Of a DNA stretch of 64,000 nucleotides, positions 1,876 through 5,907 are shown piece by piece. This DNA is from Haloprofundus salilacus (GTDB lineage Archaea; Halobacteriota; Halobacteria; Halobacteriales; Haloferacaceae), in NCBI RefSeq assembly GCF_020150815.1, contig NZ_CP083723.1, positions 2,666,001 to 2,730,000 of the forward strand. The letters are read 5' to 3'. The stretch's first letter is position 1, and every line of letters starts with the position of its first letter. Both the position numbers and the translations under genes were made by a program. The notes beneath the pieces are model-generated. The model was given only the letters and a program-made list of their open reading frames with translations. It had not been told where the DNA came from and did not search any database.

Positions 1876-1949
1876 GTCCGGGTTGGGGTAGTGGACCATC
1901 CTTCAGCCTTGTGGAGGCTGAGACGCGGGTTCGATTCTCGCACCTGGAC
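1876..1949 (+). tRNA. tRNA-His (anticodon GTG)
   Basis: A full cloverleaf can be drawn. The encoded G-1 at 1876 pairs with C73 at 1949. The acceptor stem is TCCGGGT/ACCTGGA, and the anticodon stem CAGCC/GGCTG carries loop TTGTGGA with anticodon GTG. The T-arm contains GGGTTCGATTCTCG. The extra G-1 typical of tRNA-His is present. No intron or encoded CCA is seen. A TATA-like element (CGTATTTGAA) lies about 26-30 bases upstream, and a T-rich stretch (TGTTTTTC) starting at 1951 may terminate transcription. The accessory region of about 4 kb begins directly downstream. Confidence 0.97.
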
Positions 1950-2095
1950 CTGTTTTTCTATTGATAATTTGTGGGCCTATAACCATCGTTAAGCAGATCT
2001 ACACCAACGTCTGAAACTTGTGAACTTTACAATAGATTGATAGAACCTTCTCATTGGGGCGATTTACTATTTCAGAGATGCTTGGGCGTCGGTCG

Positions 2096-2371
2096 CTATG
2101 AATCGAACACGGGATCTTCCACACCGATGAGTGACCACAGTTCGTCTCGGGTGATCTTCCCGAAGTCGGCTTTCCGGTGACAGCGAATACAGAGCGAAAT
2201 CACGTTTTCGAGGAAGTGAGCGTCCTCTTTTTGATGTTCACCCGAGTTGGTGAACCACCGAACAGGGACAATGTGGTGGACATCCGGTTTTCGATCGAGT
2301 TCATCGCGCGTACTGCCACACCGAGACTGTATGTTTAGAAAAGCTGAATTCCCGGGGTTCTGTTGAAACTC
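2096..2371 (-). pseudogene. HNH endonuclease, C-terminal remnant
   Basis: Reading the minus strand down to a TAG at 2096-2098 gives CGSTRDEL, then RKPDVHHIVPVRWF, then NVISLCIRCHRKADF. This is the zinc-binding core of an HNH nuclease (His-His, Asn, and the C-x2-C-H pair). The first zinc cysteine pair is incomplete and no start codon precedes it. The upstream frame runs into IS-like sequence and a stop at 2372-2374. It is therefore a 5'-truncated remnant, apparently broken where the IS-like end begins. HNH homing or restriction nucleases are common near tRNA-associated islands. Confidence 0.7.
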
Positions 2372-2426
2372 TCAATCAGGGATAGGTTGGCGAGGCCGTG
2401 CTGAATACAGAGAATCTATTCAGCAC
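2355..2426. mobile_element. possible solitary insertion-sequence end
   Basis: The stretch starts GGGGTTCTGTTGAAACTC, similar in style to the GGTTCTGTTG terminal repeats I remember for IS6-like haloarchaeal elements. It ends in a perfect 9-bp inverted repeat, GTGCTGAAT (2398-2406) and ATTCAGCAC (2418-2426). It abuts the truncated HNH frame. No transposase frame is intact in the surrounding 600 bp. I infer a leftover IS end or a small non-autonomous element; the family assignment is from memory only. Confidence 0.35.
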
Positions 2427-2595
2427 TGCGGTCCCGACAGCGGTATCTTTAGCAGAAATACATATGAAAAGAGATGTTTGGGTAAACCTCGGAACGAGGG
2501 AGTAACCTGCCGTCTCCTGGAATCTAGTCCAAAGTGGAGCCTGACGCGGTCGGTACACACTGAACTTATCCACTTTGATGGCTACCATTATTTGT

Positions 2596-4941
2596 ATGAG
2601 CGATCAGGCAGGGAGTGCTGGAGATAGATTCTGGGGGGACGCTGCCGATGAGCGCGCGCTTGATCGCTACGCCGCGCTCGTCAACATGGTCAACGACGGT
2701 ATTTACCAGCTTGACGCCGAGGGGCGGTTCGTGGCGGTCAACGACACCATCGTTGAATTGGCCGGCTACTCCCGGGAGGAACTCCTCGACGAACAGGCGT
2801 CACTTATGCTCGACGACGAGGACGTACATCGCATCCAGAGCGAGATCTATCGGCGTCTCACTCACGGCGACCGCGGGGACGACCCCATCGAGTTCACGGC
2901 CCAGACGGCCGAGGGCGACTCGATATCGTGCGAGCTGGAGCTGCACCTACTCGTTGAGGACGGCACGTTCGAGGGGACCATCGGGGTCGTACGCGACATC
3001 ACCTGCCAGAGACAGACGCAGCGAAAACTCCGCCGGTGCAAGCGCGAACTCCAGCAGAAAGAGCGCCAGTACGAGGCCGTCTTCGAGGACCCGAATATCC
3101 TCGTGGGTCTGTTAGAGTCGGACGGAACAGTGTTGGACATCAACCAGACGGCCATGGAGTATATTGAGGCTGATCTTGAGGCGGTAATAGGCGAGTCGTT
3201 CTGGGAGACGCCCTGGTGGGGCGATGACGACGGGATTCAGGACGACGTCTGCGAGTGGACCGGGCGGGCGTCCGCCGGCGAGTACGTCGACTTTGAGGCC
3301 GATCTTACCCGCCCGGACGGTGAGCCGTACACACTCAGTGGCTACTTCCGGCCGGTCACCAACGACGACGGTGAGGTCGTCTCTATCATCGTCTCCGATC
3401 GGGACATCACCGACCGCAAGCGCCGCGAACGCGAACTTAAGGAGTCCGAGCGCCGCTACCGAACGCTCACCAACGACGTCCTCGACACCTCCGACGTCGG
3501 CACGTTCATCCTTGATTCGAACTTCGAGGTCGTCTGGATTAACCAGGCCACAGAGCAGTACTTCGGGCTCGACCGTGAGGCGGTCGTCGGCCGAGACAAG
3601 CGCCGGCTCATCGAGGAGGAGATTGCCCCGATCTTAGAGGCGCCCGATCGCTTCACCGAGCGGGTGACCGCAACCTACGACGATAACACCTACACCGAGG
3701 AGTTCGAGTGTCACGTCCTCGGGGACGACGCACGCGAGGAGCGATGGCTCAACCACTGGAGTCAGCCCATCGAGTCGGGCCTCTACGCCGGCGGCCGCAT
3801 CGAGCACTACACCAACATCACTGAGCAGATCAAACGCGAGCGCGAACTCGAACGGGCGCTCGACCTGCTCGAGCACACCAAGCGCATCGCGGACGTCGGC
3901 GGCTGGGAGATCGACCCGGAGACCCAGGAGGTATTCTGGACCGAGCACCTCTTTGAGGTCCTCGAGGTGGACGCGGACGAGGAACCGCCGCTGGACGAGG
4001 CCCTCGCCGTCTACCACGAGGACGACCGGTCGGTCGTCGAGGACGCCGTCCAGAAAGCGCTCGACTCGGGCGACCCCTTCGACGTCGAGGCTCGGTTCCA
4101 GACCTCCAGCGATGAGGTACGCTGGCTCCGGGTTCAGGGGGCCCCGACCACCGTCGACGGCGACGTCGTCTCCCTCCGCGGGGCGGCCCAGGACGTTACC
4201 GACCGCAAACAGCGCGAGCGGCGGCTTGAAGAGCTGATCGACCGGTTAGAGGAGTCCAATGAGCGGCTCGAACAGTTCGCGTACGCGGCCTCACACGACC
4301 TACGGGAGCCCCTGCGGATGATTTCGAGCTACCTGCAGTTACTTGAGCGTCGGTACGCTGACGTCCTCGACGAGGACGGCGAGGAGTTCATCGAGTTCGC
4401 CGTCGACGGTGCCGAGCGGATGAAGGCGATGATAGAGGGCCTGCTCGAGTACTCTCGCGTCGACACGAGAGGCGACCCCTTCGAGCCCGTGGAGCTGGAT
4501 GCCGTCGTTGCGGACGTCTGCGATGATCTCCAGGTTCGGATTAAGGAGACCGACGCCGAAATCACTACTGACTCACTACCTCGCATCGACGGTGACGAGG
4601 AGCAGTTGCGCCAAGTGTTCCAGAACCTGCTGGACAATGCCATCGAGTACAGTGGCGATGAACCTCCCAGGGTGTATATTTCGGCCGACCGACAGGGTGC
4701 TGAGTGGGTCGTCTCGGTCAGCGATGAGGGAATCGGTATCGAGCCGGATGACACCGACCGCGTTTTCGAGGTGTTCCAGAGCCTTCACACCACCGACGAC
4801 CATGCAGGGTCGGGGATCGGGCTTGCGTTGTGCCAGCGCATCGTTGAGCGCCACGGTGGCGACATCTGGGTCGACTCCGAGCCTGGCGAGGGGACGACGT
4901 TCTCGCTTACACTCCCTGCGGCGAGTGAACACGAGAGGTAG
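2596..4941 (+). CDS. PAS-domain sensor histidine kinase (four PAS)
   Basis: A 781-residue soluble sensor kinase. Four PAS modules lie at about residues 25-140, 155-285, 290-420 and 425-545, each ending in the usual D-I-T-D/E-R PAC signature. They are followed by a HisKA dimerisation helix with phospho-accepting His567 (ASHDLREPL) and an ATPase domain with N-box (NLLDNAIEY), G1 (DEGIGIEP) and G2 (GSGIGLAL). There are no transmembrane segments, so it senses cytoplasmic cues such as redox state or ligands, probably as a one-protein sensor without an adjacent receiver. An earlier in-frame ATG exists at 2575. The ATG at 2596 is preferred because CTTATCC lies about 27 bases upstream. Codon use (more GAG, TAT, CTT) differs somewhat from flanking genes, consistent with accessory DNA. 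Confidence 0.92.
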   Translation: MSDQAGSAGDRFWGDAADERALDRYAALVNMVNDGIYQLDAEGRFVAVNDTIVELAGYSREELLDEQASLMLDDEDVHRIQSEIYRRLTHGDRGDDPIEFTAQTAEGDSISCELELHLLVEDGTFEGTIGVVRDITCQRQTQRKLRRCKRELQQKERQYEAVFEDPNILVGLLESDGTVLDINQTAMEYIEADLEAVIGESFWETPWWGDDDGIQDDVCEWTGRASAGEYVDFEADLTRPDGEPYTLSGYFRPVTNDDGEVVSIIVSDRDITDRKRRERELKESERRYRTLTNDVLDTSDVGTFILDSNFEVVWINQATEQYFGLDREAVVGRDKRRLIEEEIAPILEAPDRFTERVTATYDDNTYTEEFECHVLGDDAREERWLNHWSQPIESGLYAGGRIEHYTNITEQIKRERELERALDLLEHTKRIADVGGWEIDPETQEVFWTEHLFEVLEVDADEEPPLDEALAVYHEDDRSVVEDAVQKALDSGDPFDVEARFQTSSDEVRWLRVQGAPTTVDGDVVSLRGAAQDVTDRKQRERRLEELIDRLEESNERLEQFAYAASHDLREPLRMISSYLQLLERRYADVLDEDGEEFIEFAVDGAERMKAMIEGLLEYSRVDTRGDPFEPVELDAVVADVCDDLQVRIKETDAEITTDSLPRIDGDEEQLRQVFQNLLDNAIEYSGDEPPRVYISADRQGAEWVVSVSDEGIGIEPDDTDRVFEVFQSLHTTDDHAGSGIGLALCQRIVERHGGDIWVDSEPGEGTTFSLTLPAASEHER

Positions 4942-5907
4942 ACTACCTATCCCAACCCATTTTTCTGATCTGGTGATACCGCACGGAATCATGAGTACGT
5001 ACGCTGAATTCAGCACAACATTTCTATCACGTTCTGGAGGGTTTCAACCGAGTCGTTTCTAGGGGATAGGAGAGATAACTCCCGAAGACAGGAGAGATTC
5101 GTACTGTAATGTCGGATGTGCGTAACTGAGTCTCATAATCGGCTTCGAGTAGTCTCTGGACACAGGCGTCCTTCTAGGGCGGTCAGCGTTCGCCAGCGAA
5201 GGTTCATAATCGGGGAAACTCCCCGCAAGAAGAGCAGTAGAGGTCTGCGGTGATTCGCTAGGAACGATAGATGAAGATCGAACGAGGGGTTTGGTGTGGT
5301 TGACGAACGGTTGCGTGTCCGTTACCCTCCGTCGGTCGGAATGGGGCGTCGTAGATGAGAGAGAAACACCGGTAGTTGCGCCTCGGAGACAGTACAAAAC
5401 CGAGAGACCGGAACCGATTATGAACGTTCGACTCGTGATTTACTCGGGCGCCGAGACGCAGTTCCCAAGAGAGTACCCTTGTCGAAGCAGCGTATTCACA
5501 CTGTTTCAGTCGAATTTGGCTCACCTCCGGAGACGACGAGGCGTTCATAATCGGGTTCCCACAGCGTCTAAGACGTATTTACCGGAATTCAACTCCGATC
5601 ATGAATACTTGCGAAGTCCCTGAGAGTAGGTAGAGCGATTCAAGCCTTCTCTCCGGTCTCGAAGCCGATTATGAGTAAACGTTGGGTATCTGATAAACGC
5701 CCTAACAACTATTTCTGGAATTGCTCACAAGTACGCACGTTAGCTAAGCAAACCACGTACGCTCTCGTCAGTCGTTCGCCTGAATTTCGTAGGGTCGGCG
5801 GAACACTTGCGTCGGGAATCAGGGTTCGACGCAGCTCAACACCAGAGACCGAAGCGTCGCACTCGGGCACCCCTTCGAGTGGGGAGAGTCATCGAATCGA
5901 GCGAGAG
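4942..5907. other. long gene-free region of atypical composition
   Basis: About 960 bases lie between the histidine kinase and the small zinc protein, both transcribed toward it. I find no reading frame with haloarchaeal codon bias or recognisable similarity on either strand. The base composition is more AT-rich than the neighbours. It carries the TTCATAATCGG repeat cluster listed separately. It could be decayed mobile DNA, a non-coding RNA locus or an array of binding sites. Confidence 0.6.
5133..5674. repeat. cluster of six TTCATAATCGG-type motifs in both orientations
   Basis: Copies occur at 5133-5142, 5203-5213 and 5544-5554 on the plus strand. They occur at 5414-5424, 5595-5605 (one mismatch, CCGATCATGAA) and 5665-5674 on the minus strand. 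The outermost pair forms an exact 17-bp inverted repeat, TCATAATCGGCTTCGAG at 5133-5149 against 5658-5674. The first two and last two copies are each 70 bp apart. No known repeat family comes to mind. The spacers are unrelated, so this is not a CRISPR array. Confidence 0.6.

Follow-up and report, generated by a model that had tools for sequence, protein, structure and literature searches.

A conserved multi-site DNA element of haloarchaea, linked to a VirD4/HerA-type ATPase gene, as a candidate landing site for a DNA motor

What does a tight cluster of short motifs do in a stretch of haloarchaeal DNA that carries no visible gene? The question arises from a 64-kb window (the whole stretch of DNA analyzed, C1:2666001-2730000 of genome G000, which has 2 contigs and 3.73 Mb), in which a first-pass annotation had listed six copies of a motif, three per strand, enclosed by an exact 17-bp inverted repeat and with the first two and the last two copies each 70 bp apart. 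All six copies are present (plus strand, 5133, 5204, and 5545; minus strand, 5414, 5595, and 5665), the one at 5595 with a single mismatch (TCATGATCGG). The cluster exceeds chance by a wide margin: these six are the only matches with at most one mismatch in the window, compared to 1.51 expected and a maximum of 5 in 100 shuffles, and the chance of six copies falling within 542 bp is P ∼6e-15. The outer repeat is indeed exact and inverted but measures 18 bp (5132-5149/5658-5675, 100% complementary), and the spacing of 70 bp holds for the last two copies but is 71 bp for the first two. In agreement with the annotation, gene predictions made with a simple codon-usage script place no credible gene over the cluster, whose G+C content is 53%, compared to 65% for the window. 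In the following, we document a sequence family, its geometry, its linkage to one gene, the coherence of its variants within genomes, and the constraint on its sites; the region in the window is an orphan chromosomal copy of this conserved haloarchaeal element family with fixed multi-site geometry (Table 1).

Table 1. Parts of the element copy in the window and the tRNA gene that borders its locus (window coordinates)
Feature	Position	Strand	Basis
tRNA-His, left border of the variable insert holding the element	1877..1950	+	Interval of ∼360 bp in sister genome G004, compared to 3.9 kb
Whole element, orphan copy, C+/A+/B-/D+/A-(degenerate)/C-	5132..5675		18-bp perfect terminal inverted repeat; architecture as in 47 distinct elements
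Outer site C left, CTCATAATCGGCTTCGAG, 71 bp outside A	5132..5149	+	Inverted repeat; C at -71 in other elements
Site A left, TTCATAATCGG-GGAAACTCC-CCGCAAGAAG	5203..5232	+	PWM score 37.8, best match in the window; 81-site consensus
Site B, TTCATAATCGGTTCCGGTCTCTCGGTTTTGT; 210 bp to left A, 181 bp to right A	5394..5424	-	B geometry across elements
Accessory site D, 50 bp inside right A, orientation opposite to that A	5544..5554	+	Opposite-orientation site at +50/+51 in 14 of 93 ends
Site A right, degenerate, TCATGATCGG-N9-CCGGTAAA	5578..5604	-	Weak PWM score of 10.4; placed by the 70-bp spacing to C
Outer site C right, 70 bp outside right A	5658..5675	-	Motif match and inverted repeat

The exact 10-mer TCATAATCGG occurs 16 times in G000, mostly in clusters, compared to 3 times for a reversed control, so that the motif does not show the random genome-wide density that would have spoken against the first-pass annotation; as that annotation had hoped to see, TCATAATCGG clusters recur with the same geometry in many haloarchaea. 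Within the genus, they are found in two sister species (G001 and G002) and are lacking in two others (G003 and G004), and across the 391 Halobacteria genomes A sites with at most two mismatches occur in 85, among the matches listed. We collected 47 distinct elements from many genera. The element spans ∼540 bp and consists of two mirrored ends, with an outer site C and a site A 71 bp further inward, and a central site B. Site A is bipartite and ∼27 bp long, TTCATAATCGG-N9-CCGCAAGA, the nine spacer bases having no strong preference in a position matrix of 81 sites; the two A sites of an element face one another at a distance of 358 to 481 bp, with the copies of C outside them. Site B, TCATAATCGG followed by about TCTATCGGTTTT, lies 200 to 205 bp from one A and 172 to 189 bp from the other and takes either orientation across elements. 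Several elements are found per genome, in G000 also on its secondary replicon, C2, and their spacings are nearly constant, while the spacer DNA is divergent. When 93 ends were aligned at A, a same-orientation site (C) stood at exactly -71 in 30 of them, compared to an average of 0.39 per distance; 14 ends had an opposite-orientation site at +50/+51, and 19 had B at +201/+202. Because the A matrix later described the loci on which it had been trained, the positions of C, D, and B, which played no part in the training, make the cleaner evidence. Judged from sequence, this fixed geometry is the strongest sign that the element has a function. The copy in the window follows the family plan (C 71 A 210 B 181 A 70 C, plus the accessory site), but since its right A site is degenerate, it may be decaying. 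That the region is a decayed coding gene, which the first-pass annotation had named as an outcome that would overturn its view, is disfavored by the lack of a credible gene and by sites in two orientations at constant spacing; its suggestion of an array of binding sites for a DNA-binding protein gains support from clusters that recur across haloarchaea with constant geometry. On C2 (L170 7685-9793), the copy lies near a gene for a family B DNA polymerase-like protein, as seen by eye.

A comparison of the genes around 21 element copies pointed to one family, encoding an ATPase, that directly adjoins the element in three loci from different species. We then relied on separate searches of the 391 Halobacteria for the ATPase protein and for A sites, with hand counts among the matches listed. 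In at least 25 genomes, compared to ∼1 expected, the ATPase gene has an A site no more than 4 kb away, often only 55 to 190 bp behind the stop codon. Complete A pairs are present at 19 loci, where the distance from the ATPase stop codon to the nearest A ranges from 55 bp to 3.6 kb and is at most 400 bp in 14; most of these 20-kb ATPase loci hold no further strong A match. The A pattern alone led to 11 haloarchaeal loci in a collection of named genomes, and in three of these (Halobellus rufus, Haloarcula mannanilytica, and Halovivax sp.) the ATPase gene ends just before the element, which makes the linkage independent of a gene-based choice of loci. Bacterial matches to the A pattern were unpaired and of about the number expected by chance. 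The two features also co-occur: with a close homologue defined by an E value of at most 1e-190 and genomes with the element by two or more A sites, a close ATPase is found in 33 of the 41 genomes with the element and in 66 of the 350 others, among the matches listed (odds ratio, 17.8; P = 4e-15, uncorrected for kinship). The genus of the window follows this pattern, G000, G001, and G002 having both a close ATPase and elements, and G003 and G004 only more distant relatives of the ATPase and no elements. The association has exceptions in both directions, as elements without a close ATPase occur in G083, G053, and G214, and no recognizable element was found within 10 kb of the ATPase at L248 and L267; G328 and G340 have, by eye, diverged versions. 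The copy in the window has no ATPase gene near it, the only match in G000, among the matches listed, being at C1:92431-96012.

The motif variants of the elements are coherent within genomes (1.31 core differences, compared to 2.07; 0 of 500 shuffles as extreme). This would be expected if one protein per genome read all copies, although shared descent also adds to the effect, since the spacers show a weaker form of it. Three species share a syntenic orphan copy at another locus, in which the motif columns are 92% identical, compared to 70% for the other columns, suggesting that purifying selection constrains orphan copies. Variants can also be seen at plasmid loci: (C/T)CACAATCGG...CCGGAAG is the form of both A sites in Haladaptatus plasmids, with an unchanged layout behind the ATPase gene. 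In G328, the first 500 bases past the ATPase stop (L252) hold a strongly diverged element with TTCAGA-type motifs and seemingly the same spacing, which may reflect a drift of the recognition sequence. A literature search on the motif returned no haloarchaeal paper, judging by the titles listed, and the element family is previously unrecognized.

The ATPase itself is ∼1200 amino acids long. The Pfam family TrwB_AAD_bind matched above its cutoff in all three proteins tested and TraG-D_C in one; together with weak CedB/TraD matches, this identifies the protein as a DNA-translocating ATPase of the VirD4/TraG/HerA type. The match to plasmid_TraB reached 14 bits, against a cutoff of 800, PADLOC gave a weak mad8 match alone, and the PHROGs matches were to families of unknown function. 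An invariant D...ExE pattern in the C terminus hints at a nuclease domain; the predicted structures of the C terminus and the motor (from 3 and 2 sequences, respectively) were of too low quality for use. The gene is carried by plasmids, megaplasmids among them, and by integrated elements, and phages and viral contigs yielded no relatives. Upstream of the ATPase gene, a divergent gene in 13 of 23 loci encodes a protein annotated elsewhere as DNA-binding or OB-fold, and TFIIB-like, SWIM-domain, toxin-antitoxin, and Orc1/Cdc6-like genes are further recurrent neighbors. This context fits the haloarchaeal integrated mobile elements with fusexin genes (PMC9259645). A second ATPase clade, ∼52% identical (L267 7777-11370; G003 C16:407688-411227), has no recognizable element nearby and may use another site. 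A second dispersed repeat of ∼29 bp, GTGCTGAATACAGGGCGCATATCGGTCAC, is present on C1 of G000 (∼55 to 92 kb) in six copies of one orientation around the only close ATPase gene of the genome (L248 1229-8299) and once just outside the 55-kb element (L173 9257).

The copy in the window lies in a variable insert of 3.9 kb (1951-5898) between tRNA-His and a conserved block, an interval that measures ∼360 bp in the sister genome G004; G001 has a similar element at the equivalent place. Copies of the 3′ end of tRNA-His, 24 bp long, recur downstream in other species of the genus, with three more in G002 and two, one of them imperfect, in G004 (L168 4015-4434; L166 4001-4295), which marks this tRNA gene as an integration hot spot. 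The insert in the window also encodes a multi-PAS histidine kinase (2575-4941), and the matching insert of G001 contains other genes, an HNH-type gene among them, by eye.

Several readings compete for these observations. A partition or chromosome-organization site, that is, a centromere-like array to which a segregation protein binds while a HerA-type ATPase segregates the DNA instead of transferring it between cells, would account for the symmetric multi-site array, the several copies per genome (the secondary replicon C2 of G000 included), the linked DNA-pumping ATPase, and the long retention of a copy at one locus. We nevertheless consider it rather unlikely, as the distribution is patchy across the Halobacteria, with two of the five species of the genus lacking the element, and the recurrent neighbors included no ParA/ParB-type gene that we noticed. 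The first-pass annotation had raised a nonautonomous element, which would here be a relic or MITE-like mobile element with complex, Mu/Tn7-like ends, its motifs serving as transposase sites and its copies spread by transposition. Copies are indeed dispersed in each genome and differ in presence between sister species, their mirrored terminal sites face inward ∼71 bp apart, and the window copy has a perfect 18-bp terminal inverted repeat, although other copies share the sites only. Yet we found no clean insertion boundary at two loci, nor a target duplication at the one examined in this respect, where the intergenic DNA is too diverged to trace one, no transposase is consistently adjacent, the two mirrored ends are found to the same side of the ATPase gene and do not flank it, and the syntenic copy has kept its sites above its spacers, so that this reading, too, is unlikely.

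Another reading sees in the element a replication origin or a regulatory sequence of integrated elements, with an initiator of the Orc1/Cdc6 or another type bound to it. It draws on Orc1/Cdc6-like genes found, at 5 of the first 20 loci, no more than 10 kb from the element and on a region more A+T-rich than the genome; it appears improbable given that most copies, that of the window included, have no such gene close by, that several orphan copies occur per replicon, and that the motif is unlike what we take to be the haloarchaeal origin-recognition box. A viral origin was also considered and rejected: viral contigs hold only single pattern matches, and the one inspected, L124, resembles ordinary coding DNA, in line with the lack of viral or phage relatives of the ATPase. 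The position of the window copy in the tRNA-His hot spot brings to mind the attachment or arm-site region of a tyrosine integrase, lambda-type attP also having arrays of arm sites, but all six integrase-family genes of G000 are more than ∼150 kb from any element, XerC/D-like genes are near 1 of 41 loci, and most copies are not beside a tRNA, making this highly improbable. Equally hard to credit is the structured noncoding RNA that the first-pass annotation had proposed to examine by folding. Both strands do fold better than shuffled sequences (z = -2.4 and -3.7), as any inverted repeat would, but the 9-nucleotide spacers of mirrored A sites are no more alike within elements (2.98 of 9 matches) than between them (2.97 of 9), B occurs in either orientation, and there is no Rfam match.

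The position of the element right behind the ATPase gene in many species instead suggests that it is probably a landing site for a DNA-moving motor, perhaps one that acts between cells. Our best explanation, to which we assign about an even chance, is a cis-acting loading or transfer site for the linked motor, working like the clt sites of Streptomyces. The ATPase, or a partner protein encoded beside it, would bind the inward-facing A and C sites, and the bound sites would form a symmetric nucleoprotein complex around B, on which the motor would be loaded to pump DNA, perhaps after cutting it, for transfer between cells. Orphan copies, including that of the window, could give this motor a starting point on the chromosome, in the way proposed for Streptomyces TraB at chromosomal clt-like sequences. 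Haloarchaea swap large pieces of DNA between cells, and our literature search found no described cis-acting start site for a conjugation-like process in them. Tentatively, then, the element might be an archaeal, relaxase-independent origin of transfer for a VirD4/HerA-type motor, with orphan copies from which cells would begin to exchange chromosomal genes. Being compact, conserved, and linked to a translocase gene, the element is a concrete and easily tested candidate for such a start site, and orphan copies, if active, would predict where chromosomal transfer begins.

This proposal can be set against known transfer systems. Like a classical oriT, the sequence needed in cis for transfer, the element would be cis-acting DNA beside coupling-protein genes; a classical oriT, however, requires a relaxase and a nic site, and bacterial-type relaxases are reported to be lacking in archaea (PMC9905601). 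The haloarchaeal integrated elements that bear fusexin genes carry XerC/D, HerA, VirB4, and TraG/TraD/VirD4 genes and are thought to move in a conjugation-like, fusion-dependent manner (PMC9259645), but, in the part of that account considered here, no cis-acting DNA site is described. In Thermus, ICEth1 is a tRNA-located integrative element whose HerA-like TdtA drives the transfer of chromosomal genes by transjugation, together with the NurA nuclease (PMC5365140); the sections of that work drawn on here describe, as in our case, a HerA-family pump of an integrative element, but one with the nuclease encoded by a separate gene and no mention of a cis-acting site. The closest counterpart is found in Streptomyces, where TraB, an FtsK-like translocase, binds the 8-bp clt repeats (TRS) and chromosomal clt-like sites (PMC12857230, PMC4170104). 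The haloarchaeal site differs from clt in that it is bipartite (∼27 bp), mirrored, and held at fixed distances over ∼540 bp, and its ATPase, of ∼1200 amino acids and from an archaeal host, is VirD4/TraG/HerA-like and not an FtsK-like TraB. We describe the element as clt-like in layout and stop short of classing it with clt, given that its pump does not resemble TraB and that binding and transfer are inferred. Despite these differences, both systems combine clustered short sites linked to a hexameric DNA-translocase gene of plasmids or integrative elements with extra sites on the chromosome, which in haloarchaea take the form of orphan copies, several per genome.
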